Shown here: positions 18,062 to 51,125 of the stretch, one piece after another
How positions within the stretch are numbered: position 1 is the stretch's first letter
Layout: every line of letters starts with the position of its first letter
Assembly: GCF_963678975.1 (NCBI RefSeq)
Contig: NC_089274.1
Span: 372,001-436,000 of the forward strand
DNA: 64,000 nt
Reading direction: 5' to 3'
From: Dysidea avara
Taxonomy: Eukaryota > Porifera > Demospongiae > Dictyoceratida > Dysideidae
Notes under the pieces: model-generated
Seen by the model: only the letters and a program-made list of their open reading frames with translations
What the model was told of the DNA's origin: nothing
Databases searched by the model: none
Program-made: the position numbers and the translations under genes

Positions 18062-18391
18062 ATATAAAATAGTTGTTCCAATACTGAAGACGGGGTTAGA
18101 ATATAGGTACTTGAACACTTTAGTAGAATCATAGACACAGTATACCATAGGGATTGGAAACGGAGACTCGCGCACAAACATATCCGTGTCTCGCATGACG
18201 TAAAGAACGCACCGTCACTAGGGCTTTCATCCGTAGCTAGTAATCATAGATAATAGAGGGCGTAAACGGGATTGGAAACGCGCTCGTATTTACCTAGCAA
18301 CCGCTTTCTATCCGTGTTATCAGTGCGTAGTGACTAAATTCAGCGAAGTTTTGGTTCTTCTAGTTATCGGTTTAACAGCTAAAGAAAGTGT

Positions 18392-19615
18392 ATGGCAGGT
18401 GCAGGTACTTAACTCGGTTCTTGTTGTCTGCTAACTAATTATTTGACGTTGTAAAGGGTGTGGCTTACAGCGTGCGGTTTACCGCATTAGCAGTGACAAA
18501 CTATAGGACTAATTGCCAGCTTCGCCTACATTTTGGTTACAAATTGAACCATATTTCCATAGCTGATAACTTTATACCAAAAGCTAATGTTCAAATAGTC
18601 CATTCTCCTGAGAATTATATCCATGCCATATATTATTGTTTTTTACTCTCTATCTACAGCTAATGGATCCGGATATGTGAAAAGTGGAATTGAGTCCATT
18701 TTGAAAGAAGAATCTTTTACAGTGCCATCACATACAGCAAGAAATGTAATTAATATAGCAAAAGAAATGAAGAAATGGATTGAACAGCCTGAGAACAATG
18801 CGGAAACGAAAAGATTTGAAGAAAACCTAATGAAATCCATCGAATCATGCTTCACATACAAGGGAAAAATTCCAAAGAAACAGAGGGAGAAAATGTGGAG
18901 CGCATACCACACACTGCGTACATCAGCTAACTATCTGAGCTTATGGAAGAACTTTTGTAAAACAGTGGGCACTGAAGGGTCACCAATTTTTTACCAGTAC
19001 ATTGGAGATCATGTGCTGAAGGAACTAGCTAAACTAAAATACCCAATTTCCACTAATATTACCATCGAAACTGAAGAGGCTGCACTTACATATGAAGAAA
19101 GGAATGGACTTCACTATGCTACAGGGTACGTGCCAAGGTCATTAAAGAAGAAGCTATATCGGTCAAGCCATCAGCATAAAGAGGTATTAATTTCTCTTTT
19201 GAGAAATCTGCTCGATGAAAGAAATGATGATTTTGATGACTCAACAGATTGGATCAGTTTGATAGACAGAGGTGGACTGAAAAGAGTCAACAATGATACA
19301 TACCAGTTGTTTGTGGCCTTTGAAACACAATTACGAAAGCAGATCAATTCACAACATATTCCACTACTAGGGGCAGAGAGCAAACAAATTCTGCTGAACA
19401 ATGACAATGTCTAGTTCTTTTGGAGCATAGTTTGTACAGAATGGGAAGAAGAGATTGGCAATGTCCTACTTGAGATGATTGTAAATGAATGGGTCACAAT
19501 ACGTGGATTTTCATATGCTAATAATTGGATAGAGAAGTATAAGCAGGATACCCAGACAACAACTGGGAAGTCTAAAGGATTACGAAAACAACTATTGGCA
19601 ACTAAAAGTGAATAA
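18392..19615 (+). CDS. Second (non-transposase) gene of the P-like transposon, with one in-frame TAG
   Basis: Exon 1 is only MAGA (18392-18404), then a 255-bp intron, then exon 2 (18660-19615). The product would be about 322 aa. It is acidic/basic mixed, without signal peptide or membrane segments. Notable stretches are KMWSAYHTLRTSANYLSLWK, HYATGYVPRSLKKK, WISLIDRGGLKRVNNDTYQL and a conserved end WVTIRGFSYANNWIEKYK. The frame is interrupted once by TAG at 19412-19414 and resumes in the same frame. An AATAAA follows at 19738. A homologue lies at 23678-28292, so the gene belongs to the element. The pattern 'Y-x-AGYV ... (N/D)RGG(L)' loosely recalls the C-terminal part of THAP9-like transposases; function unknown. 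Confidence 0.75.
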
Positions 19616-19737
19616 AAAGCAGCATGTACAATACTCACTTCACACACATGTACACATGCACGCACGCACACAAACCCACACACTACTAATCTGCTACCAA
19701 TACTGCTATACATATGCACATTTCATGTAGCTAATGA

Positions 19738-19743
19738 AATAAA
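19738..19743 (+). promoter_or_regulatory. Polyadenylation signal of the transposon's second gene
   Basis: AATAAA lies 123 bp after the TAA of the plus-strand gene and 14 bp short of the stop codon of the convergent transposase gene, so the two transcripts would nearly meet or overlap at their 3' ends. Confidence 0.5.
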
Positions 19744-19756
19744 GATATAAATCTAG

Positions 19757-22700
19757 TCAACATTTCTTTGATATGCGTGCTCGCTTTGGTAGTGGCTCAT
19801 TAATATCTTCATTACTTAGTGAAGTGTCTTGTTTTCCTTTGCGACAGTTTCCTCCCCTTGGAGCCCTGGCTACTGAGTTCACAACTCTCAGTGCTTGAGT
19901 GTTGTTGCGAAATTCTTTAGCATTTGGATTATCATGTACACCACCACGTTGTCTCTGTATTCCAAAAAAATCGTTCTAAAGGATCCTGACACAGCCGCTG
20001 ACTTAAGAAAGATTTTACCCCAGGAATAGTGAAAATGTATTGAACCAGCTCTTTGAATGACATACCTATTAACAAAATAATTTATTTTAATATAACTTAT
20101 GTACCCTTACAATCCATTCTAAGTCCAAGACGTGTTTCTCTGCTTAGTAGCATAAATGCTTTCTCTTCTTTACAGTAGCCAGATCGTTGGTCAACTGCTT
20201 CTTCCCAGTCTGTGAGGTACTGTTGGAATTCATCCATGAACTGCATGTATGTCATAGAAACAATAGCTTATTATGTTATGTTCACATTTCAATTAACATA
20301 CCACTAATCGGTCATCCTTTGCTGATTCATAAGGCTTTTGAAAATCTTTGCGAGTGTGTATACCTTCATAGTAGTTGTGTACATTCATTGCATCAAACCA
20401 CTTATCGCACATCTCCACAAATCTAGCTGTTTCATCTGCCTCTTCTCCAATACTTAATTTCATACCACTGGCAACACTTTGGCTCAATACCTAAATATAA
20501 CATTGACTAGAAGAATAAAACATTGGCTGTACAATTTTGTACTTGTGCAGCCAAGTCAACACGCATCTTAGAGAAAGATGTAAGCTTGATATGTTCCATC
20601 TTGATTTTGGGAATCAGTCTGACTCCCATACCTGGATCAGTATCTCTGCTATATAGCGTTGTTAGGTGTGACCATAAAATGCTTTTCCCATTATTCTACA
20701 GGAAGATTAGTCAACTTGTAAATGGCCTTGCAGAGTAATACTTACCCAAAGGTGGCGAGATTTTGACTCCCAGCAGTTCCGAATGGTTTTCATCAAATGA
20801 GGAGGATCGGAAAAAAAGTAAATGTAACGGTCTTCTTCAGTAAACGGATTTTTTGTCTTGTGCACAATCTCTTGGAATGGATTATGCATTTTCATAAACT
20901 TTCGGTTGATGGAGTTGCCATCCAGTGTTGCAGCAAGAACCTACATGCATAATGCATTACATGCTAATCAACAATACTTTAAATATCACCTTAAACCCAC
21001 AAGTTTCTACCCTCCTCACTGCTTCCCAAAAAGGATCATAAAGTTGGTCTCCAGACAAGTTTGCACAAGGAAATTGTGCATATGGAAACTGCAGCTTGGT
21101 AAACAATCCTCGTACCATGATTACCAGCATTGACTTGGCAAGTTGGGGCTTAGGTGGACTATCTGCCTTCAGTCTCCCTTCATATTGTAGCAAATGTGTA
21201 TTGATATCCCCCAAATCTACAAAGCCAATCAGTTCTCCTGAGTGTTTGTCAAAGACCAAGTCTTCCTTGATGTGCATCTCATCCAACAGGAGTAAGACAT
21301 GCTTATCTCTTGTTGGACAAGATTCTATGTTGGCAGCTTTCATCAGCATTCTGTCTACATCACTGGAAAATCCATTGCTGGCTTTTACATAATAAGTGTA
21401 ATCCCTGAGTGTTCGTTGGGATGGAAGATGTATACATCCTGTGTTCCTCATTGATTCATATGCACCCCCAGACCTATTAGAACAAGTACTCTTGTAGCAA
21501 AGATAACTTGTAGATTTACCTGTGCCTAATGTAAAGACACCAGCGTATTATCAAGGGATGCCAACGCATGGTACGAGCATCTGTTTTGCTGGCTGCTTCA
21601 AGTTGTTGCTTCCAAAATATATGCTTAAAGGAGTCCTCAGGCTCATTCTCAAGGAATTTTAGTCCTTCACTTGCAATAGTCTGTGAACACAATATGCATT
21701 TATTTGTGATATATATATACATTTAAACATACCTTGATATCTTCATGGGTTTCTTCATCAAGGGTAATGCCATCAACCTCCACACTTGCAGCTATCTGTT
21801 CTTTAAGTTGTTTAATTCTGACTTTGGCTGCATGATATTGTTTCTCCACTTCACCAAGTCGACTTACAAGAGTAGGTAAGGTCTGATGCCTGTTCAATTG
21901 TGAGTAGATGCTGAATTGAAATACTGCTATGTACTTGTTACCTGTAGTTAGTATGGCTACTGGTACTTGCTTCAAGGTCAATGTTTCTGAAGCGATGCAC
22001 TTGTGTTCTTAGATTCTTACGAAGTGTACTACATTGAGTACAACGGTCATACCGGTTGGTGCTTGTAAGCAAGTAGTGGCAATCATTGTGATGAACAGAA
22101 GGCTCTATTGTATCTTCCAAATGCCCAGAACCTGGATCTTAAAAAAGTAAGTGATGGTGTACATGTAGTCAGTAATGCAATTTAGATTATTTAATTCTGT
22201 GGCACTGAGCTTGATGCTCAGCTTTGATGCAGGATACCAAAATATCAACAAACTTTTAATTTTCATGCTAATATACTCTAATAGAGGGGTCATGTATACC
22301 TCTTTAAAAGTTATATATAATAATAATTATTATTATGTTGCTCCTTTGATTACAAGGTATGTAGAAACTGACAACCATACAGTCACCTAATTTCTAGAGT
22401 TATACTGGATTGAGTCACTTACTGGCAATTCCATGTAGTGTTGATAGCCGATACTGCCGACACTCAACAAAATCTTGATCAGGGTTGCCTACACAATACT
22501 TAGCAGCATCCAGAGTTTCAATTATTTCCATTACTTTTGCTACATTGCTAATGGTATCTGGTAAAGAACTAAGTAAGGGACAATTTGCTGCTGTGAGTTG
22601 ATGATGCAGGTAGTGCACTGTCCACTTCAGTTCTGAATTGATACTTAAGCTCATCATTACACAGCCACACAATGCTTCACTTGTAGACAACTGTTGAACC

Positions 22701-22978
22701 TCCAACTTACAAAGAGTCAGTGGATCTGCAGTGGCTATCTTCCAAGATGGGTGTAAGTGTGTGAAGAAAGGAGAACTCATCAGTGTAGTTATTCGAGAAT
22801 GCAAAACATCACTAGACGCAACTGGTCTGGTAGCATATATGTCAAGGGGAAGTGGTACTGGTGCTTCATGAATCACCACTTCTGAAGGCTGGCTATTACA
22901 TTCTCTCTTCTTCTTCATAGCCTTCTTCCTTTCTTCATTCTTACGGTGTGCACTAAGTCGAAACCTTCTGCCACCCAT
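19757..22978 (-). CDS. P-element/THAP9-type transposase, ten exons, one frame slip
   Basis: Cut-and-paste transposase of the P superfamily, about 840 aa. Exons: 22978-22423, 22131-21942, 21889-21733, 21680-21520, 21473-20990, 20940-20746, 20695-20543, 20490-20302, 20240-20111, 20065-19757. GT-AG sites and phases agree at every joint. After a basic N-terminus (MGGRRFRLSAHRK) come a Cys/His cluster (HHNDCHYLL...RCTQCSTLR), a coiled coil (residues about 250-300), TMRWHPLIIRWCL, LPSQRTLRDYTYY, the catalytic LLLDEMHIKEDLVF, SDPPHLMKTIRN, the GTP-binding-like insertion HIKLTSFSKMRVDLAAQ, and RLCQDPLERFFG with RQRGGVHDNP. No canonical THAP zinc finger was found at the N-terminus. A T7 run near 19970 shifts the frame by +1 between LERFF and RQRGG; otherwise it looks intact. 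Confidence 0.9.
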
Positions 22979-24142
22979 TCTTCTGCAAGAGTCATTCAAC
23001 AAGTTAGCCTGAATGATAGCTATATATGCCAGTGGTGACAATAAAAATCCACATTGTTTATGCTTTACATACTATACCTAGCCTAACACGTGATGTAGTT
23101 TACAAACGCTATGCAAAAGTAGAGCATTTAAGCAGCCCAACACATTCAAGTATTGGTCTCTACGAAGTTTAGAATAAGAGAATCCCCCCCCACAAAATCA
23201 GGTGGTGAGACAACCCGAATTTTAAGATGTCTTACTGAATAACTTGTAAACCTCTATATTTACAGCAGCATTTTATGCAGCATGCAAAATAACACTCAGA
23301 GAGTAGTTAAATGCGTTAATTACCGTCTATGTAGAGTGTGTAGTAGAGCGACGCTACCCCCACAAAAAGTTTGTCTCGAAGCCATAAACATTACGTTAAC
23401 ATTTTCGACGTAACTAACCACACACTGTGCGGTTTTGTGACATAAGTATCTAACATACCAGCTATACAGTTCCTGCGGTAGCAATAGAGCGACACGAGAT
23501 ACGACACAAGACGAAGCCTGTTACACCAGCGTAGCAACAAAGTTCTCTTTCCAAAAAGGAGGGAAACTAACCGCGAAAACTTCGCATTACACGGATAGAA
23601 AGTGGTAGAAAGTATTAGACTATTGGGTGCACGTGAGCCGTTTCCAATCCCGTTTACGCCCTCTATTATCTCTGGTAATGGCGAGTGGAATTGTCCGTAG
23701 CTTTATAAGTGGGTTTTGTGACGAAGCGGAAGAATCTTCCCGGATGGAGAGTGGTAGAAAGTTTGTTGAAGCATTTTTGGGTTACCATTATTCCACGGAA
23801 CGGCACGGAACGGAATGGCATATTCCGTGGCATTATTCTCCGGAACGGAACGCCTAAAGTGCCTAGATATATCCTCTAAATCACTTTCAAACACTATACT
23901 ATGTTACTTTTGTGACAAACAAAACGAGCCGGCTGTTTCTTGTAGCCGATAACTAGCCTTTCGGCTATAGTTATGCCTCGAATTATGCTAATGTGAAATT
24001 TTATCACGTGACCTGCAACTGTCACAGAGGTGACAACACGAGGAAACACAAGATGAAGAAGGTGAGTTGGTGACGAATGCAAATAAGTCCTTTTGTGGTG
24101 AATTCAGTCTTTGCTGTAGTTATAGAAAGTGCTTATAGCAGA

Positions 24143-24262
24143 AAGAACCAGAATGGAAGGCAATTCTGACGGCAGAACCAGAGTGGAAGACGGCGACCTG
24201 GATGACAGAACCAGAGTAGAAAACAATCTGGACTGCAGAACCAGGGTGGTAGACCAGAGCTA
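24143..24262. repeat. Short minisatellite, unit about 36-40 bp
   Basis: Repeats of GCAGAACCAGAGTGGAAGAC-type units, about three to four copies with drift, inside the 2.9-kb transposon. Confidence 0.7.
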
Positions 24263-25197
24263 AGAAGGACTGAGAATTACATTTTAGGTATACTAGAGCA
24301 GATCTCTGTGATTTTGATAAGAGATTCAGAGTTTTATAAACAAAGGCCACTCAGTTGAAAACTGAATTTTTGACTTGGTTTATGAAAGAGAAATTTAGTA
24401 CTGCTGTATGTTGCAATACGTATGGCCCTAACACAGAATTTGAAAACTTGCGTGAGTGGACAAGAATCAGTAAAAGAGGTGAGTGTGTGTTTGTTTGACA
24501 TATTGTCTATCAGCGGAACAGCCTGACTGCTCCAAACCTAGCTACAATTTATAATCTTCTTAAATGCAACAACTTTGTAAAGATCAGGCTTTACAGGCTC
24601 CTTGAGCCTCCTTATCTGTAAACCTAATGCTAACTTGAGAATGGATTTACCATCAATTGAACAAAATGAACACTAGTGGTGATAATTTTAATGGCTGAAA
24701 GTTAAGCTAAAATTTTATCAAATCTCTTTCTTTGATATCTGCATGGGTTTGCTAAGCCTGTGGTGGAGTTACCGAAGTGTTGGTAGCCTGTGGTTGTTTA
24801 CTAGATAGGGAAAAAATGGCAAGGCCAACAACCAAATATCATTGCTTACTTTCTGGACAAGAATAGCATTGATAGTAGTTTTTTGATGCACTGCAGTGTC
24901 ACATTGTGGTGGTGATATACAAACATCTAATGGTAGCACTCATTTTGCCACTTTCTCTCTCAATACTTTTCTTTGACTGCTTGGTTCACACCAATGAAAT
25001 TATATAGAACATGCTGACCAGGTTTCTACTCTATTTAGAGCTAATTTTAATATGGGCTCTGCTACTAACAATTAACCATACATGTTTATTTTTTAGTGGG
25101 AAAAAAAGGATTAATATTTCCTTACTTTTTTTGTAGTTAATATCATTATGTTAACAGTTAATATGTTTGCTCCAACATGCAGATCATCTAGTGTGCA

Positions 25198-25920
25198 GTG
25201 AGGAAGACTCATCACACAGTGGATCACTCCTTTTGGACAGCTCTCCATCGAGTCAACCTGTCAATGAAGCTTCCAAAAACTTGTTCAAAAGTATACGACT
25301 CAGTGAAAAGAAGCAGCATCCTCCTACAAAATAAAAGACTGCTGATACATACAGAGAATTGTCCAAAGATGAAGACACCCATTCCTGGATTGATGAATTA
25401 CACTTCATGGATGGGGACAAAGCTGTGCATGGTATTGTCGGGTGATTGGATTAATGTTGCAATTATCAATGCTAACCAATATAATATTGAACAAGTAGTT
25501 CAAACAAAATTTCAAGATGTTGGCTATTGAGTTGTTTGATTGTTGAAAGTGCTTTCTTTCAAGTTATACTTGACAGCAACAGAAATCACTGGGTGACAAT
25601 TAGTAACTCAACCAGAAAAAGATGCGTTGGTTTTTGATAGTATGTTTTCTTATGACAACTAATGCAAGTGGCCTGTTTACTGCACACCAACAAAATCAGA
25701 AATTACCCTGAACTTTGTAGATGTTCATAAACAGACTAGATGTAATGATTGTGGTTTGTTCAGCATTGCATATGCAGTGCTCCTGTGTTTAGGTGAAAAC
25801 CCTGGCACACTAGTATTTGGCTACCCTATAAGATGTGTAGCCATCTCTCATCTTGTATTGAACAACAATGTTTTTCTATGTTACCAATCAGAGGCAAAAG
25901 AAGAAAAATCTGAAAATAAA
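25198..25920 (+). pseudogene. Decayed Ulp1/SENP-like cysteine protease segment
   Basis: Open stretches encode HSWIDELHFMDGD, then downstream TRCNDCGLFSIAYAVLLCLG followed by ENPGTLVF. The NDCGLFSIAYA block matches the catalytic-Cys region (x-DCGLFAIAFA) of Ulp1-like proteases carried by several animal DNA transposons, and GENP is the usual continuation. The frames are broken several times between these blocks, so no full protein is encoded. It lies within the 2.9-kb element. Confidence 0.6.
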
Positions 25921-26847
25921 ATAAACTGAACAAGCAAAGGCTTACTGGATGCCTGGCATGCCACGTTGACCTCCAATGATATGCTGTTTGGAGTGTTCAG
26001 AATGGTACCATGCATGGGGATGTATGCATTTCTCCAGTTTCTGTTGAAGCACCTTAGACAAAGAATGTACACTGGAGTTGTCAAGACTGTATTGAAACTA
26101 ACTAGTGTTTAGTAATTGTTACAGTGTAGTATATCATTGTACCATTTATTTGCTGTACTGCTTTTAATTTAATTGTGTTAATTTACTGTATATGCTAATA
26201 CTTTGTCACTTATTTTACTCGATAATGTTGGTGTTATCACCATAGTTAATTGTATTCAATTTTTGCTGTTCAACTGTATTCTTGCTTCCTGTAAGAATTT
26301 TTTTCACTGTGGCATCAACCTATGTAGCAAGGTTAAATTAGACATGCTGTATAGCTACATACACAGTTGAGGCTTGGGGACTGGTCCAAGTTGAGAGACA
26401 ACCTTTAAGTTTATTAGTACTGTAATAAAACAGACATAATACTGCGACTACTAGTTTTTATGCTATAGCTTTGCAGACCTGATAGCTATAGATTTAGAGT
26501 TGAATGTAGTCTATAAAACTTCCTTTATAGATCTAGCCGTTCCAGGACTCCCATGGCCACCAAGAAATACTATAGTTGATGCGTTGGGGGGAACGTGTGT
26601 CTGCTCTGTTCCGTTCCGGAGAATAATGCCACGGAATATGCCATTCCGTTCCGTGCCGTTCCGTGGAATAATGGTAACCCATTTTTGCACCATATTACGA
26701 ACGGAGACGCTTCAATGGACGCTTTTGACGAATTCAGCGAAGAGCTAGTGATGTCACTTAAGGAAATATTCGACAATTTGAGGGAGTACAAGTCCATCTC
26801 CACAAAGAAAGAGAAACTCTGGTGTGAATTCCACCGTAAAAGACTCC

Positions 26848-27559
26848 GGACATGACTAAAACACGGAACGGACTGGGAAAACGGACTAGCAAACGGACTG
26901 GAAAGAACTTGCCTGAAAACGTTTTTTGGCCATAGAAATTCACTGTATAGGTGCTAGAAAGAATATAACACGCAACAACGACCTGAAACAAACCTCTGAA
27001 CTGCTCTGAACACGATGTCGAAGTTTGCTCAAGCCGATATTAAGCCCTGCGCTTAAAGATAGTCTGAAATTAAATTCATTTTGTGTTTAATTAAAAGCGC
27101 ACTTTCGTTTCTAATGTGTAAACAAGACAAGACACAAGCTTTAAGCCTTATGTTACTTGGTCTGGTTAATTGCTGCAATTAGTTTGACGGCTGATCTTCA
27201 GTTTTACAGGTGACAGCTCGTGACAGGTAGGCTTCGTGGCGGCCACGTTGTATTTAATCAGCTGGCAAGAAACTGGCTACTACAAATCTTTGTTTGCTTA
27301 AACTGTTAGTAGCTAACCGACAACTTCGCTGTCACAGGCGCTCAAACTGGCAGACTGGCGCTTTGTAAATTATCTCAGGGTAGTAATGGTGGCTCGAGCA
27401 CACGTTTAGAGGTTTGTTTAAGGCTGTTGTTACGTGTTATATTCTTTGTAGCAGTGATTTAGTGAGTTTCTATGGCAAAAAAAAACGTTTTCAGGGGAGT
27501 TCCTTCCAGTCCGTTTGTGAGTCCGTTTTCCCAGTCCGTTCCGTGTTTTAGTCATCTCC
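26848..27559. mobile_element. 712-bp MITE with 9-bp target-site duplication
   Basis: The left end GGACATGACTAAAACACGGA and the reverse complement of the right end, GGAGATGACTAAAACACGGA, match over about 85 bp with few differences. AAAGACTCC flanks both sides (26839-26847 and 27560-27568). Inner TIR parts repeat AACGGACT. The CACGGAACGG block is shared with the TIR of the 2.9-kb element, so the two may be mobilised by related transposases. It interrupts the accessory gene of P-like copy 2. Confidence 0.88.
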
Positions 27560-28439
27560 AAAGACTCCACACGTTTCCTGATATTTGGAAGCGTTTTTGC
27601 AGGGGTTTAGACATCCCATGCAACCTGAGCTGGTGGCACAAACAGTCAACCTGAAGCTATTTGAAAGCCTATTAACAACCTTTTTTGCCAAAAATTCGGA
27701 AACAGTGGCTGCACCAACATCTAGTAGAACTACTTCTTTCTCTTTTTCTGATGACGAGTTGAATGCACTAAGATATGTTGCAGGATATGTCCCATATTCC
27801 ATACTAAAGAGATATGAAAGAAACCACCAGACAAAACCAGCAGTATTGGAGTGCCTTGGAAATATGGCGGTAGCCGGGGATGACAGTGACATCCACAACT
27901 ATACAACAAAGTGGATTGAGACAGTGAACCGAGGAGGATTATTTCCCATCAACGATAAATCATTTCAATTATTCATTGCCATTGAGAGCATAGTTATACA
28001 GACACTATCTACCAGTTATATGAACACTGTACAACATGACAACATCAAAACACATACAATAAATACATGCATAAAAAATACACAAGTTCAGGAAAAATGG
28101 ACTGTGTTGACCAAATACATTGATTTTGAGAAGCCAGATGATGAGATAAAGTTATTAGAAGAAATTGTAAATCTTTGGGTTACTATACGTGGATTTTCTG
28201 TAGCAGCAACATGGTTGGAAACATTCAAACAGCAAGTTAAAGTGAACACAAAGAAGAAAAAAAGCTTACGCCAGTCTCTTTTATCAGAGTAGCTAATGCA
28301 TGCAGTTCCTTCAATATATATAGCTACAGTTAACAAACATGATCACATTCCTATATATATATCTATATAGTTAGTTGTTTGGCTGTTGTATAATATTCCT
28401 GTTATTAATATACATTAATGCATTATATACAATCAATGT

Positions 28440-28640
28440 AGACATTCGGATCGCCTTTTTGGCAGAGGAATCATTGCTGCAGCTGTTAAATCAGACCGCT
28501 CCAAATTCCTCTTCCGTGAGCAGTTGCCTCTCACAGGATCCAGGGCCATGGATTTTTGGATACGAAGAGCCCCTGCATTTGTCAAACATTGTTGTAGTGT
28601 TGGATTGGTGTTTCTACCCCCTCTTGCCCTTTGTTTTCCA
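28440..28640 (-). pseudogene. P-like transposase C-terminal remnant
   Basis: One open minus-strand frame reads ARGGRNTNPTLQQCLTNAGA, then LRIQKSMALDPVRGNCSRK, ending LPKRRSEC. It aligns with the last exon of the copy-1 transposase (RQRGGVHDNPNAKEFRNNTQ, ALRVV, RGGNCRK, LPKRA). It sits convergent to the accessory gene ending at 28292, in the same order as in copy 1. The rest of this transposase is missing. Confidence 0.75.
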
Positions 28641-28664
28641 TAATATACACTGTTAAAAATGAAG

Positions 28665-28815
28665 TTTGAAGGTTATACCATGGAGTATGACGGTTATCCC
28701 TACCTTGTTGGTATAAAAAACGCTCGGTATGAAGGTTATACTATATGGGATGAAGGTTATCCCTACACGTTGGTATAAAACTTCACAGGTATAACGTTTA
28801 TACCTTCGTAATGTC
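28665..28815. repeat. Two tandem copies of a 60-65 bp unit
   Basis: Units contain GAAGGTTATACCATGGAGTA / GAAGGTTATACTATATGGGA, each followed by GGTTATCCCTAC and GTTGGTATAAAA. They begin where recognisable P-like sequence stops, so a further insertion may have truncated copy 2 here. Confidence 0.65.
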
Positions 28816-31317: not shown

Positions 31318-32815
31318 AAGAATATTATTATTATTATTATCAATTTACCACAGACCGGGAAGGACAAGTACAAAAGGTGTAAGCCTGTACAAGGTACTGT
31401 CCAGAATACAAAAATAACTACAAAATACAACATTACAAAACAAAGACAACATTACACAACAAAATACCAATACACGAAAGCAATACAATATTAACAATAA
31501 ATTACTTAGAAAATGCCACAGAAGTGTTTATATGCAGCATGGCGAAAGGCAGTACGGGTTGCAATTCCCAAGATATCAATAGGCACTTGATTCCAGACAA
31601 AACATACCCATACAAAGTAAGAATATATACCTCCTAGCATTAATTGTTGACAGGGGTGGTACAAGAGAAAGAGAATGACTACGTGTAGCCAACGTGTTGT
31701 AAGTACAGTACTTCAGAAAAGGAATGGAACCATTGTGACGAATGTCCTGAAGAGTACAAACTGATAAATAGTCACGCCTGGAACACAAGGGAGGTAAATG
31801 CAACTTTTGATAACAGGTTTCATGGGGAAGAGACCAAGAACATGTGGTTGGGTTCCAACGACTACCACAAGCCCACTGTGCAGCACGTCTCTGGACAGCC
31901 TCCAACAAATTCACATCTTTAGCAGTATGTGGTGACCACACTACACAAGCATACTCCAACAATGCCCTTAATATAGCCTTGTATGCTCTACATCTAGCCT
32001 CCGAATCACACCCAAACATGGTACGTCTTAAAACATTCCAAACCCTAGTAGCCTTAGTAGCAGCAGCCTGACATTGAGTAGACCATTGTAATTTGCTATT
32101 AATTTGAATCCCCAGATACTTCACAAGATTAGTCCATTGTAGTGGTTGATCTCCAATAAAATAAGTAAAAGTAATAGGCTTCCTTTTGTTGGTAATAGAT
32201 AAAGCCTCACACTTAAGAGGATTCAAATTAAGCTGCCACAGTTTAGACCATGAGACTATAGCAGAAAGATCATTCTGTAATAGCTGGCAATCTTTTACTG
32301 ATTTCACACTAAAATAAAGGAGTACATCATCGGCAAACAGCTTTAATTTGCACACATTAGGTATTGAAGACAGCTCATCTATGTAAAGTAAAAACAACAG
32401 AGGGCCCAGAACAGACCCTTGTGGCACTCCAGAAGTGACTGGTGCCCAATCTGAGTAAGAACCATTTACAACCACCCTCTGAAATCTCTTAGTAAGGAAG
32501 GAGCGCATCCATTCTAACAGATTACCACTTATCCCAAGGGATTCTAATTTCAGAAGTAGCCGTTCATGTGGAACCGAGTCAAAAGCTTTGGCATAGTCCA
32601 AAAACAAGCAGTGAACAGACTCACGGTGCTCCAGTGAGAGTGTCCAGCCATCTAAAGCTTGAAGCAGAAGTTTAGTTGTAGAATGATTCGGTTGAAAGCC
32701 ATACTGGTGCTGACTCAAAAGGTCATTTTTTCTCAATACTGAATATAAATGTTTGTGAATTATACGTTCCAAAACTTTCACAATGATTGAGGTCAAACTA
32801 ATAAGATATAATTTG
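31318..32815 (-). mobile_element. 5'-truncated LINE retrotransposon (reverse transcriptase ORF open)
   Basis: A minus-strand frame open for about 410 codons (32815-31576) covers most of a non-LTR reverse transcriptase. It starts within LISLTSIIVKVLERIIHKHL. Then come QYGFQPNHSTTK, DYAKAFDSVPHERLLLKL, SGVPQGSVLGPLLFLLYIDE, the catalytic FADDVLLYF, NPLKCEALSITN, KYLGIQI and the C-terminal ALLEYACVVWSPHT. The endonuclease and ORF1 are missing. About 250 bp of 3' UTR ends in an (ATA/AAT)n tail at 31321-31340. The style (C-terminal YACVVW, simple-repeat tail) points to the Jockey/CR1/L2 group. The open frame suggests a fairly young insertion. Confidence 0.9.
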
Positions 32816-34289
32816 GTGAGATACTCTAATAAAGCAGTCAGGCAATTATAATACTCTAATATAACAGTCACTTAGCTGTAGAGAAAACTCTTTTCAAAAT
32901 TACTGCATGTGTATGCCCTGCAAGATGACATGATAAAAGGAAGCGTTGCTTGTAATATTTGTGTACTTGTACATATTAATAGTGTTGCAGGGTGAACTGT
33001 TTATAATTGTTGCAGGGTAAAAGAGGCATGAATCCCAATGAGCAGCTTGTTACTACCAACTGGATTGAACATAGCTGACTCTAGAGTCTGATCAAAGTTT
33101 GTAACTCATCACCTATGTGTCAAGCAGTTGTAAAAACTATTCACAAGCAAGGAACTCAACTGAAATATTATTGCATAATTCAATGAACAGCATTACTTGT
33201 GATCACAATGTTATAGCATAACTAGTGTTTGTGTTATTTGTACTTGATTTGTTATTTCAATGACCAAGGGCTATTTGGTATACTAGCAATACCTTTCGTA
33301 AATATAATTCCTAAAGGGAACTAGTGGTTACCTACAAACAACTTGAGAGTTCCACACTGTGTATGTAAATAATTCATCATAAGGCTGCTTGACAATGTAC
33401 TGTAATATAACATGTTCGGTCAGTTATAGTCTACACATCCATGTTCCTTGCAGATGATAAGCACATACATTATCACAACTTCAAACCACAAACACATTAT
33501 GGAGCATTACTATCATCTAGTGACAGTTGGATATTTAAATGTTCTCTTCCTTTACAGTTCTTATGCACCCCTCAGCCCTTGGCCCAATATCTTTTACGCT
33601 ATGATTTCAGTTTCTCAGAATGCCTGTGAATTAAGAAAATATACATTTTAATTCAACGAAATAGTCCACATACCTCTCTCAGTGCTATTACATTGGCTGA
33701 ACATAATTTGACACTAAACAAACAAGAAAGTAAATCATGAAATTTAATGATAAAATAAGACTCATATCTTTCCTATTAATGCACTACAGCCAGTCCCATA
33801 TAATTATATCATAAACACTGTAGTTGCTAGATATGGTGTAGAGCCGTACGACAGAAATAAATTCCAGGTTTCACAGGAACTCCTAGTACAAAACAGTGAA
33901 GCAAAAGCATTTTACAGCATTTCTTTAAACTTGAAATCTATGTGGAATATATCAAGAAAAGAATATCTCAAGTTGATCCCAAGGAATATGATTTTTGATC
34001 TTGTAAGTTATAGTCACCAGTCTTGTGGCTAGGGTAAACACTTGCCTGAAAGTAATAAGTGCCTGGGCCATAATTGACAATACAGTACTTGAAATCAGGA
34101 CATGTACCTTAGCGCCATTAATGGTCTCATTTGTAGTTGTTTAGACCTCTCAAATTAGGACACTTTGGGTATACTAGCATCACTAACGTGCTAGTTTCGT
34201 CCCTGATTAGGAACAATGTATGACACATAATCAACAAATGTTTAAGAAATTACTGGCTCAGTTCTACATACTACACACATGCACACACG
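32816..34289. other. Non-coding stretch
   Basis: No gene is supported. Two copies of the dispersed ACTCTAATAGAGCAGTCA motif (TACTCTAATAAAGCAGTCAG and TACTCTAATATAACAGTCAC, 32822-32870) lie right at the 5' truncation point of the LINE. Confidence 0.55.
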
Positions 34290-40339: not shown

Positions 40340-43300
40340 AACACAATAGTGTGATATAGTGAGGGGAAGGGCATCACGACACACAATAACATAGTGAGGG
40401 TAGGGGCATCACAACACACAATATTACAATAGTGTAACATAGTGAGGGGAAGGGCATCACGACACACAATAATACAATAGTGTAACATAGTGAGGGTAGG
40501 GGCATCACAACACACAATAATACAATAGTGTAACATAGTGAGGGTAGGGGCATCACAACACACAATAATACAATAGTGTAACATAGTGAGGGTAGGGGCA
40601 TCACAACACACAATAATACAATAGTGTAACATAGTGAGGGTAGGGGCATCACAACACACAATAATACAATAGAGTAACATAGTGAGGGGAGGGGCATCAC
40701 AAAACACAATAATACAATAGTGTAACATAGTGAGGGCAGGGGCATCACAAAACACAATAATACAATAGTGTAACATAGTGAGGGTAGGGGCATCACGACA
40801 CACAATAATACAATAGAGTAACATAGTGAGGGTAGGGGCATCACAAAACACAATAATACAATAGTGTAACATAGTGAGGGTAGGGGCATCACAAAACACA
40901 ATAATACAATAGTGTAACATAGTGAGGGTAGGGGCATCACGACACACAATAATACAATAGAGTAACATAGTGAGGGGAGGGGCATCACAAAACACAATAA
41001 TACAATAGTGTAACATAGTGAGGGTAGGGGCATCACAACACACAATAATACAATAGAGTAACATAGTGAGGGGAGGGGCATCACAAAACACAATAATACA
41101 ATAGTGTAACATAGTGAGGGTAGGGGCATCACAAAACACAATAATACAATAGTGTAACATAGTGAGGGTAGGGGCATCACAAAACACAATAATACAATAG
41201 AGTAACATAGTGAGGGTAGGGGCATCACAAAACACAATAATACAATAGTGTAACATAGTGAGGGTAGGGGCATCACAACACAAAATAATACAATAGTGTA
41301 ACATAGTGAGGGTAGGGGCATCACGACACACAATAATACAATATTGTAACATAGTGAGGGTAGGGGCATCACAACACACAATAATACAATAGTGTAACAT
41401 AGTGAGGGTAGGGGCATCACGACACACAATAATACAATATTGTAACATAGTGAGGGTAGGGGCATCACAACACACAATAATACAATAGTGTAACATAGTG
41501 AGGGTAGGGGCATCACAACACATAATAATACAATATTGTAACATAGTGAGGGTAGGGGCATCACGACACACAATAATACAATAGTGTAACATAGTGAGGG
41601 TAGGGGCATCACAAAACACAATAATACAATATTGTAACATAGTGAGGGTAGGGGCATCACGACACACAATAATACAATAGTGTAACATAGTGAGGGTAGG
41701 GGCATCACAAAACACAATAATACAATAGTGTAACATAGTGAGGGTAGGGGCATCACAAAACACAATAATACAATAGTGTAACATAGTGAGGGTAGGGGCA
41801 TCACGACACACAATAATACAATAGTGTAACATAGTGAGGGCAGGGGCATCACGACACACAATAATACAATAGTGTAACATAGTGAGGGTAGGGGCATCAC
41901 AACACACAATAATACAATAGTGTAACATAGTGAGGGTAGGGGCATCACAAAACACAATAATACAATAGTGTAACATAGTGAGGGTAGGGGCATCACAAAA
42001 CACAATAATACAATAGTGTAACATAGTGAGGGTAGGGGCATCACAAAACACAATAATACAATAGAGTAACATAGTGAGGGTAGGGGCATCACAAAACACA
42101 ATAATACAATAGTGTAACATAGTGAGGGGAGGGGCATCACAACACAAAATAATACAATAGTGTAACATAGTGAGGGTAGGGGCATCACGACACACAATAA
42201 TACAATAGTGTAACATAGTGAGGGTAGGGGCATCACAACACAAAATAATACAATAGTGTAACATAGTGAGGGTAGGGGCATCACGACAGACAATAATACA
42301 ATAGAGTAACATAGTGAGGGTAGGGGCATCACAAAACACAATAATACAATAGTGTAACATAGTGAGGGGAGGGGCATCACGACAGACAATAATACAATAG
42401 TGTAACATAGTGAGGGTAGGGGCATCACAACACACAATAATACAATAGAGTAACATAGTGAGGGTAGGGGCATTACGACAGACAATAATACAATAGTGTA
42501 ACATAGTGAGGGCAGGGGCATTACGACAGACAATAATACAATAGAGTAACATAGTGAGGGTAGGGGCATCACAAAACACAATAATACAATAGTGTAACAT
42601 AGTGAGGGTAGGGGCATTACGACAGACAATAATACAATAGTGTAACATAGTGAGGGGAGGGGCATCACAACACAAAATAATACAATAGTGTAACATAGTG
42701 AGGGCAGGGGCATCACGACACACAATAATACAATAGTGTAACATAGTGAGGGTAGGGGCATCACAACACACAATAATACAATAGTGTAACATAGTGAGGG
42801 TAGGGGCATCACAAAACACAATAATACAATAGTGTAACATAGTGAGGGTAGGGGCATTACGACAGACAATAATACAATAGTGTAACATAGTGAGGGCAGG
42901 GGCATTACGACAGACAATAATACAATAGAGTAACATAGTGAGGGTAGGGGCATCACAAAACACAATAATACAATAGTGTAACATAGTGAGGGTAGGGGCA
43001 TTACGACAGACAATAATACAATAGTGTAACATAGTGAGGGGAGGGGCATCACAACACAAAATAATACAATAGTGTAACATAGTGAGGGCAGGGGCATCAC
43101 GACACACAATAATACAATAGTGTAACATAGTGAGGGTAGGGGCATCACAAAACACAATAATACAATAGTGTAACATAGTGAGGGTAGGGGCATTACGACA
43201 CACAATAATACAATAGTGTAACATAGTGAGGGTAGGGGCATCACAACACAAAATAATACAATAGTGTAACATAGTGAGGGTAGGGGCATCACGACAGACA

Positions 43301-45450
43301 ATAATACAATAGAGTAACATAGTGAGGGTAGGGGCATCACAAAACACAATAATACAATAGTGTAACATAGTGAGGGGAGGGGCATCATGACAGACAATAA
43401 TACAATAGTGTAACATAGTGAGGGTAGGGGCATCACAAAACACAATAATACAATAGAGTAACATAGTGAGGGTAGGGGCATCACAAAACACAATAATACA
43501 ATAGTGTAACATAGTGAGGGTAGGGGCATCACAAAACACAATAATACAATAGTGTAACATAGTGAGGGTAGGGGCATCACGACAGACAATAATACAATAG
43601 AGTAACATAGTGAGGGTAGGGGCATCACAAAACACAATAATACAATAGTGTAACATAGTGAGGGTAGGGGCATCACAACACACAATAATACAATAGAGTA
43701 ACATAGTGAGGGTAGGGGCATCACAAAACACAATAATACAATAGTGTAACATAGTGAGGGTAGGGGCATTACGACAGACAATAATACAATAATGTAACAT
43801 AGTGAGGGTAGGGGCATCACAACACAAAATAATACAATAGTGTAACATAGTGAGGGCAGGGGCATCACGACACACAATAATACAATAGTGTAACATAGTG
43901 AGGGTAGGGGCATCACAAAACACAATAATACAATAGTGTAACATAGTGAGGGTAGGGGCATTACGACAGACAATAATACAATAGAGTAACATAGTGAGGG
44001 TAGGGGCATCACAAAACACAATAATACAATAGTGTAACATAGTGAGGGTAGGGGCATCACAACACAAAATAATACAATAGTGTAACATAGTGAGGGTAGG
44101 GGCATCACGACAGACAATAATACAATAGTGTAACATAGTGAGGGTAGGGGCATCACGACACACAATAATACAATAGTGTAACATAGTGAGGGTAGGGGCA
44201 TCACAAAACACAATAATACAATAGTGTAACATAGTGAGGGTAGGGGCATCACAAAACACAATAATACAATAGTGTAACATAGTGAGGGTAGGGGCATCAC
44301 GACAGACAATAATACAATAGAGTAACATAGTGAGGGTAGGGGCATCACAAAACACAATAATACAATAGTGTAACATAGTGAGGGTAGGGGCATCACAACA
44401 CAAAATAATACAATAGTGTAACATAGTGAGGGTAGGGGCATTACGACACACAATAATACAATAGTGTAACATAGTGAGGGTAGGGGCATCACAACACAAA
44501 ATAATACAATAGTGTAACATAGTGAGGGCAGGGGCATCACGACACACAATAATACAATAGTGTAACATAGTGAGGGTAGGGGCATCACAAAACACAATAA
44601 TACAATAGTGTAACATAGTGAGGGTAGGGGCATCACAAAACACAATAATACAATAGTGTAACATAGTGAGGGGAGGGGCATCACAAAACACAATAATACA
44701 ATAGTGTAACATAGTGAGGGTAGGGGCATCACAAAACACAATAATACAATAGTGTAACATAGTGAGGGTAGGGGCATCACGACAGACAATAATACAATAG
44801 AGTAACATAGTGAGGGTAGGGGCATCACAAAACACAATAATACAATAGTGTAACATAGTGAGGGTAGGGGCATTACGACAGACAATAATACAATAGTGTA
44901 ACATAGTGAGGGTAGGGGCATTACGACACACAAAAGTACAATAGCGTAACATAGTGAGGGTAGGGGCATCACGACAGACAATAATACAATAGTGTAACAT
45001 AGTGAGGGTAGGGGCATCACAAAACACAATAATACAATAGTGTAACATAGTGAGGGGAGGGGCATCACGACAGACAATAATACAATAGTGTAACATAGTG
45101 AGGGTAGGGGCATCACGACAGACAATAATACAATAGTGTAACATAGTGAGGGCAGGGGCATCACAACACACAGTAATACAATAGACAATAATACAATAGT
45201 GTATCACAACACAAAATAATACAATAGTGTAACATAGTGAGGGTAGGGGCATTACGACAGACAATAATACAATAGTGTAACATAGTGAGGGTAGGGGCAT
45301 TACGACACACAAAAGTACAATAGCGTAACATAGTGAGGGTAGGGGCATCACGACGCACAATAATACAATAGCGTAACATAGTGAGGGGAGGGGCATCACG
45401 ACGCACAATAATACAATAGCGTAACATAGTGAGGGGAGGGGTATCATAGC
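40340..45450. repeat. Giant 48-bp minisatellite, about 106 copies
   Basis: Unit ACATAGTGAGGGTAGGGGCA, TCACGACACACAATAATACA, ATAGTGTA (48 bp), repeated over 5.1 kb with about 5-10% divergence between units. Variation is concentrated at a few positions: GGGTAGG/GGGGAGG/GGGCAGG, CACGACACAC/CACAAAACAC/TACGACAGAC/CACAACACAA, and ATAGTG/ATAGAG/ATATTG. Variant units recur in the same order in blocks, a higher-order pattern. As 48 is a multiple of 3 and the unit has no stop in two minus-strand frames, frames of 1,740 and 1,604 codons arise with 16-residue repeats (e.g. LHYCIIVCRDAPTLTM). I regard these as artefacts. Confidence 0.95.
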
Positions 45451-49742: not shown

Positions 49743-51125
49743 ATGGCTGATAGGGCTACTCAATCTGATCGAATTACCCTGCAGAAGGGAGAACAGCAAG
49801 CTGATGTGTTCATGCATCAAGTGACTACTGAAAATCTCCGCCGCTTGTTTCAGGTTAGCTATAGCTAGCTAACAGAGGGACGTGGATCTACCTTGCAGGA
49901 TTGCTATGGCTAGCTATATCATAGCTATACGTACAGTGTATAATGGTGTTTTTTATTTTTTATATATATTTTTTGTTTTAAACTAGCTATAGCTAAGTAC
50001 TTCATAGATTGCATTTTTTTCCTTTCACATACAGGTTGACCCTTCAGTCGTCTTCTTGAAGGACAGTATTGACGAATCGATGTATTTTCCAAGTGAGAAT
50101 GGGACCTTTAACCTGTCTCAAGAAGGTGTGATGCCCTTTTCAACTCTACTGGTGGAAGGCAGGAACTTGACAGAGGGCCGTACCAGGACCCCAACTGGGA
50201 CCCCATCTTCCCATGTCCAGTCTTTAAACAGCAGCAACAGCAGTATACCCGGGACCAATCCACCTGTACATGTACTTGCATCGTCCACTCCCTACCAGGG
50301 GTCATCTAACTCTATGTTCAGATCGGTGGTGGCAAGGCGTCCTCCACCATCTTCCACTGTGAAACTGGTGCAAGCCAAGCTAACAAAGAACGGCAGGACA
50401 ATAAGGTTTCATGATAAAGCCCAGATATTTGTGAATATCACAGAATCTACAGCTCACACTGAGTTTATATTGGCTGCGATACAACAAAAGTGGGGATCGG
50501 ATCACGTTATTGTGACAAATAATGGCCTAAAAATTGAAAATTCATCTGCCACTCAAGGTAGCTAGCTGTATGTAAAAGCAATGTGCATATACTGTACACA
50601 GTAACAATACAGGACTTGTGGTTTACCGTATGTATAACTTTATCATTTTCAGGGTTAGCTTTCTGGACGGCACCCAGAAGGAAATTATATGCCATGACAC
50701 AGAGGGATCTCAATATGATTCAAGATGATGCTGACGATGACATTGACGAAGAGCTGGCACCTCGTGCTGCCAAAAGGATCAAAAATGAACTGAGGGATAT
50801 GAGGGATGAGTTTAGAGGCTTAAGATCAATCATTGAAAGGACATTGCCAATCTCATTAAGGGACAAATTGAAAGATATATTAAAATGTTGTATATGTCAG
50901 GTGGTCCCGATAAGGCCACCGATGGTTGTATCAATGTGCTGCAAGTCAATCGTAGGATGTGAACAATGTGTTCAGCAGTTGCTGGCAACCAGTCGTTCAG
51001 CAAATTGCCCGCTGTGCAGGGACACGGACTTTGAGACTGTCAAAGTTCTCGGTCTTGATGGCTTGATTACTGCTGTAAGCAGTTACTTAGAAGATGAGAC
51101 TGACACTGCTGGAGATGAGAGTTGA
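49743..51125 (+). CDS. RING-like zinc-finger protein, three exons, complete
   Basis: Exons 49743-49853, 50035-50557 and 50653-51125, GT-AG with matching phases, 368 aa. The N-terminus is MADRATQSDRITLQKGEQQA. Residues about 75-135 are Ser/Thr/Pro-rich and probably disordered. A small folded segment follows (KLVQAKLTKNGRTIRF...WGSDHVIVTNNGLKI). Then come an acidic/basic helical stretch (MIQDDADDDIDEELAPRAAK) and a C-terminal RING-like cluster (CCICQVVPIRPPMVVSMCCK, GCEQCVQQLL, CPLCR). The Cys pattern suggests an E3-ligase-type or structural zinc site, though a classic C3HC4 His is not evident. I recall similar uncharacterised proteins as multicopy families in sponges and cnidarians. Its start codon lies inside an inverted duplication. 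Substrate and role unknown. Confidence 0.83.

Follow-up and report, generated by a model that had tools for sequence, protein, structure and literature searches.

A P-type transposon in the genome of the sponge Dysidea avara raises the question of what a second gene, pointing at the transposase gene, is doing between the ends of the element. This transposon, element 1, lies in a stretch of 64,000 nucleotides (bases 372001-436000 of one contig; the window, in whose numbering positions are given below) within an assembly of 550.8 Mb and 108 contigs; another published assembly of the species, not the one used here, is given as 575 Mb in 15 chromosomes (PMC12909245). To simplify the presentation we refer to the ten-exon P-type transposase gene as TNP and to the second, convergent gene as ACC. 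We propose, as the probable answer, that element 1 is a P-superfamily transposon in which two convergent genes share the coding of one transposase, with ACC encoding the C-terminal domain (CTD).

Element 1 is 5.43 kb long (18245-23674), with CATAGATAAT as its first and ATTATCTCTG as its last bases. The near-perfect terminal inverted repeats (TIRs) are 36 nt long, 97% complementary and 5358 nt apart, the left one on the ACC side at 18245-18280 (plus strand) and the right one on the transposase side at 23639-23674 (minus strand), and a subterminal pair of inverted repeats of 21 nt (90%) is situated at 18300-18320 (plus) and 23586-23606 (minus). TNP on the minus strand and ACC on the plus strand lie tail to tail, with 141 bp between the gene ends (19616-19756, from stop codon to stop codon). 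The arrangement put forward in the initial annotation, matching TIRs about 5.4 kb apart around two convergent genes, is therefore borne out. An Rfam scan of the window gave no matches.

TNP is composed of ten exons, which in order of transcription are at 22423-22978, 21942-22137, 21733-21889, 21520-21680, 20990-21473, 20746-20940, 20543-20695, 20302-20490, 20105-20240 and 19757-20065, and all nine introns are GT-AG. In the window copy an insertion of 1 nt, at about 19964 in exon 10, interrupts the reading frame of TNP; as ACC has a TAG at 19412, both genes of this copy are disabled. In Pfam searches with single exons, exon 5 matches the TNP-like RNaseH_N domain (PF21787, E 2.8e-18), while exon 8, with the end of the GTP-binding insertion domain (TNP-like GBD, PF21788, E 1.8e-4), and exon 10, with the C-terminal part of the RNase H domain (TNP-like RNaseH_C, PF21789, E 1.1e-3) and a short tail, give matches under the Pfam cut-off. 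PF21788 is above the cut-off in the full-length relatives P0023, P0025, P0026, P0029, P0052 and P0068, and the region is also covered by a structural match. TNP has the organization of a P-type transposase, with an RNase H-like fold that is interrupted by a GTP-binding domain. By transposase homology, element 1 belongs to the P superfamily. Among 30 aligned transposases (the window protein not being one of them) the acidic columns D506 and D609 in P0029 numbering are invariant and E854 is conserved in at least 90%; from alignment to the fly chain, we take these three residues to be the catalytic triad. The first coding exon has no Pfam match at E ≤ 1 and no THAP domain was found there, although an unrecognised upstream exon is possible. 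At the other end, the TNP protein as encoded by an open copy elsewhere in the genome (L019, 844 aa) stops shortly past RNaseH_C, without a C-terminal domain.

ACC comprises 320 codons in two plus-strand exons, the first, in an inferred model, contributing the start codon and 4 nt (18392-18398) and the second spanning 18660-19615 with the in-frame TAG at 19412-19414. The donor and acceptor sites are present in all eight full-length copies of the element described below, and at the diverged subfamily loci L022, L024 and L025 the sequence ATGGCAG followed by GT is also there, with a different intron beyond. A second gene of about 320 codons pointing at the transposase, as initially annotated, is confirmed by this recurrence of its start exon and splice sites in sister copies. 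The predicted model of the ACC protein shares the fold of the Drosophila P transposase CTD, which is all-helical, and has some 120 further residues, also helical, on the N-terminal side; both homologues and predicted fold suggest that exon 2 is a separate copy of the P-type C-terminal domain. ACC appears to represent the C-terminal domain of the transposase itself, absent from the main gene, and the earlier suggestion that it is an added target, regulator or DNA-binding partner of a complete transposase is not upheld.

A Foldseek search with the ACC model returned 52 matches at E ≤ 10 and none at E ≤ 0.001, and no ACC relatives were found in bacterial, archaeal or viral contigs. Five ACC homologues (P0014, P0160, P0161, P0163 and P0194) carry the precomputed label PF22824, which may denote a THAP9-type C-terminal family but was not reproduced on a Pfam rescan and to which we give no weight. 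The PDB, searched by sequence with the ACC protein as well as with two profiles built on ACC, gave nothing meaningful and no match to the fly CTD, Pfam gave nothing significant and consistent for ACC and its homologues, and the fold match concerns a small helical domain. These last three points would fit a different reading, in which ACC has no kinship with the CTD and is a captured host gene or an accessory DNA-binding protein comparable to PIF/Harbinger ORF1 or Myb-like proteins (the second open reading frame of PIF/Harbinger encodes a Myb-like protein) and its likeness to the CTD is a chance helical match. We regard such a coincidence as improbable.

An ACC-like domain also occurs fused to the C-terminus of the transposase in proteins of Ephydatia muelleri and Amphimedon (P0023, P0025, P0026, P0038 and others). 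The same domain is thus carried in cis in these sponges, whereas in Dysidea avara it is a separate gene on the other strand. These proteins are the closest relatives of the transposase among the matches listed (58% identity for P0023). In the split transposase that we propose, TNP would provide DNA binding, the RNase H catalytic core and the GTP-binding domain, and ACC, transcribed from the opposite end of the element, would supply the all-helical CTD. ACC would dock as the CTD onto a protein that brings catalysis and GTP binding, and both would be required. A domain that is only loosely tethered to its chain and sits packed between subunits could plausibly come as a separate protein, and the extra N-terminal helices of ACC perhaps substitute for the tether; as the fused Ephydatia proteins retain these helices, a docking role for them is a guess.

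A second possibility is that ACC is a free regulator derived from a CTD, which docks on the transpososome or on the element ends as a repressor or modulator, and that TNP needs no CTD and catalyses transposition on its own. A truncated transposase of fly P elements acts as a repressor (PMC7776569), separate promoters for the two genes would permit independent control, and the listed tailless relatives from Hydra and a sea cucumber (P0068 and P0052) come without an ACC partner shown, so that TNP alone may suffice there. However, the presence of the same domain inside the Ephydatia transposase itself argues for a core role, the Drosophila CTD is described as making many contacts to transposon and target DNA (PMC7776569), and a self-inflicted repressor must explain why ACC is kept, under purifying selection, across many families. 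We consider a purely regulatory ACC unlikely, although less so than a chance resemblance.

The layout of the window copy recurs throughout its family. With the first 500 bases of element 1 as the query, 35 pieces were found and 27 candidates scored, which is a lower bound, and 17 regions were fetched. At least eight are full-length copies with two ends (L009, which is the window copy, L010, L011, L012, L013, L016, L017 and L019); they lie on six contigs, are 98.5-99.4% identical in pairwise comparison, and hold both TNP and ACC between their TIRs in every case. L021 is an internally deleted derivative of 1.2 kb, and the remaining eight regions are either truncated or divergent copies. Of the eight full-length copies, one (L019) has an open TNP frame and ACC is open, at 320 aa, in three (L010, L016 and L019, the last with an altered end), so that a copy with both frames open, L019, exists. 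Among nine two-ended copies a 7-bp target site duplication (TSD) is perfect in six and has one mismatch in another (L011), and none was seen at the window copy and L017.

Two further searches extend the comparison to the genome. With the ACC homologue P0001 (97% identical) as query, 121 matches, with identities down to 27%, were listed and scored out of 435 candidates, 74 of them without a stop; with TNP exon 5 as query, 150 were listed and scored out of 402 candidates. The 402 first-look candidates, found with one exon, indicate that P-type transposases are plentiful in Dysidea avara, and they are varied, the identity among the 150 listed ranging from 100% to about 37%. A listed transposase match lies within 10 kb of 86 of the 121 listed ACC matches, at distances of 1.2-7.5 kb (median 1.46 kb), and 84 of these pairs are convergent, one is on the same strand and one is 'divergent', this last being an older copy in the window measured against its neighbour. 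When fragments are merged, there are 116 ACC loci, of which 80 are convergent, one same-strand, one divergent and 34 unpaired. Random placement, in which the extents of some contigs were approximated by their last match, gives a mean of 0.77 pairs and a maximum of 4; of the 121 listed matches, 86 of which are paired, about one would be expected to have a partner by chance.

The unpaired matches were followed from both sides. For 67 of the transposase matches no ACC was listed; four of these, probably from two families, were fetched, and all four have a convergent ACC; they had looked ACC-less because their ACC fell outside the matches listed. Conversely, 35 of the 121 listed ACC matches are without a listed partner, and five of these are truncated or diverged copies of the element 1 family (L014, L015, L018 twice and L022). 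ACC as mainly a host gene outside elements, the outcome that would have told against its belonging to the transposon, is not seen and is rejected, 84 of the 86 paired matches being convergent and the 35 unpaired ones having been followed for five matches. At one locus (L058, C1:59513500-59518500) transposase and ACC are on the same strand and both broken, which may represent a fusion, an intermediate stage or a rearranged locus.

A second family, represented by L073 and L074, has an ACC about 31% identical and the same convergent pair in an element of 5.1 kb that begins CATAGATATTAGAG, ends CTCTAATATCTATG and has TIRs of its own, and both copies have a perfect 7-bp TSD. The initial inference that this lineage stably includes the second gene is thus supported by the eight full copies, which also answer its call to count elements with both genes between TIRs, by the diverged second family and by the convergent pairs. 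The same evidence bears on the notion that element 1 is a usual P element with a single gene, the last exons of which are inverted in this copy or misassembled, so that the 'two genes' are a local artefact. The same-strand arrangement at L058 and the fused forms in Ephydatia could be taken to favour it; against it are the convergence of all eight full copies on six contigs, the second family with TSDs of its own, the 84 convergent pairs among 86, and the possession by ACC of its own start exon and intron, kept across subfamilies. As an account of the family, a copy-specific inversion or misassembly is refuted by the many copies and families, and we attach hardly any credence to it.

The trace of selection on ACC depends on the distance over which it is viewed. 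Against subfamily loci the ratio of nonsynonymous to synonymous divergence (dN/dS) of ACC is 0.59 (L018, 309 codons), 0.31 (L022, 247 codons, dS 0.31) and 0.25, 0.21 and 0.21 (L023-L025, 70-71 codons), and that of the transposase, without L022, is 0.56-0.69 over 75-216 codons; between very diverged families dS is saturated. Among near-identical copies the ratio for ACC scatters around 1 (10 pairs of five copies, with 0-2 synonymous and 3-10 nonsynonymous changes), and there the test is uninformative, the changes being as expected of decaying copies. The purifying selection on ACC for which the initial annotation proposed to look is therefore visible against diverged subfamilies but not among copies that are 98.5-99.4% identical. 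Low ratios between subfamilies together with ratios near 1 among copies indicate that coding capacity is kept during the evolution of the family and decays in single copies.

P0052 (Holothuria leucospilota) and P0068 (Hydra vulgaris) are THAP-bearing P-type transposases that end about 57 residues past the RNase H domain, with no CTD in cis. In a tree of the transposase core (66 of 121 rows, chosen by coverage and drawn by midpoint), in which some short tails may be due to incomplete gene models, six fused proteins of Ephydatia group together next to the element 1 transposase and the only other fused row is one Amphimedon protein, which amounts to two state changes. As the tree is unrooted and holds no canonical P or THAP9 transposase with a CTD in cis, it does not decide between split-first and fusion-first. 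Tentatively, the convergent split could be an old and widespread state in a large animal clade of P elements, with a tailless catalytic subunit and a separate CTD subunit in parallel to RAG1/RAG2 and with fusion giving rise to single-gene forms like the Ephydatia ones, but we would not count on it. If it were true, the tailless THAP-bearing transposases of Hydra and the sea cucumber would depend on unrecognised ACC partners.

Element 1 is itself inserted in an older relative. What was initially read as a second copy at 23.7-28.6 kb does have the same order and convergence, but not the limits or integrity assumed: it is an older P-type copy with element 1 inserted at the start of its ACC gene and cut by two further, unrelated insertions (about 23778-26681 and 26841-27566). 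The ATG of its ACC, at 23678, is three bases past the right TIR of element 1, and its plus-strand ACC pieces would be 23678-23780 (end approximate), 26682-26843 (identified by eye) and the main piece 27582-28292 (by homology to P0001), with 35% identity to the ACC protein P0001 over 179 aa. A remnant transposase tail convergent to it (28433-28672, minus) is 41% identical over 64 aa to the tail of the window TNP, and on the far side of element 1 a TIR-like motif at about 18146-18162 (plus), with a 13-nt exact match to the TIR core, may belong to the same copy. The insertion at 23778-26681 has perfect 74-nt TIRs (beginning GGTTACCATTATTCC) and an apparent 8-bp duplication, CATTTTTG, on its flanks; its open reading frame remnants gave no credible Pfam match (one frame of 88 aa tested), and a guess that the frame at 25663-25929 encodes a Ulp1-like protease found no support in Pfam. 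The insertion at 26841-27566, within the older ACC gene, resembles a miniature inverted-repeat transposable element, with 87-nt ends that are 90% complementary. Elsewhere in the window, a 431-aa open frame at 31576-32871 (minus) matches RVT_1 (E 9.6e-36) and is a retroelement fragment, a 187-aa frame at 50562-51125 (plus) has a weak RING-finger match under the Pfam cut-off (E 2.3e-4), and a 5-kb tandem array of about 105 copies of a 48-bp repeat (40387-45446, 93% matches) is spanned by very long open frames, which are unlikely to be genes.

To our knowledge, the CTD of P transposases has so far been known solely within one chain, joined via a disordered linker. Compared with the Drosophila P element and its transposase (6P5A, 6PE2), element 1 would carry the CTD in a separate convergent gene and with an additional N-terminal helical region, belongs to a family with a TSD of 7 bp rather than 8 bp, and has no THAP domain found in the first TNP exon; it lacks two marks of a canonical P element, the 8-bp TSD and a CTD in the same polypeptide. 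In the openly licensed PMC literature, a search that leaves Repbase and Repbase Reports outside, we find no earlier description of a P element with its CTD in a second gene. Zebrafish Pdre2/THAP9 is like element 1 in belonging to the P superfamily and in a TIR starting CATA, and is described as modelled with helix-turn-helix, RNase H, GTP-binding and C-terminal domains, but its CTD is in cis, its TIR is 13 bp against 36 bp here, and its TSD, like that of fly elements, is 8 bp (PMC10983969).

A natural split, if true, lets the role of the CTD be tested, as either half can be added or omitted, and it would offer a natural two-component design for gene delivery in which neither protein alone is predicted to be active; it is also a warning that transposases annotated as 'THAP9-like' or 'P-like' may have a further subunit, overlooked on the other strand. 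PIF/Harbinger elements likewise encode a second protein beside the transposase (PMC5543537), although the transposase is of another superfamily. In layout, element 1 comes closest to the convergent RAG1L-RAG2L pair of RAGL (ProtoRAG-type) transposons, which have two tail-to-tail genes between TIRs for a catalytic and a partner subunit (PMC7204232); RAG2L, a Kelch-type protein, does not derive from the transposase, RAG1L is a transposase of another kind and the TSD is 5 bp. Element 1 has none of the RAGL marks (a RAG1-like transposase, a Kelch RAG2-like partner and a 5-bp TSD), and if our reading is correct it would be a second animal transposon, beside RAG1/RAG2, with a recombinase built from two convergent genes.
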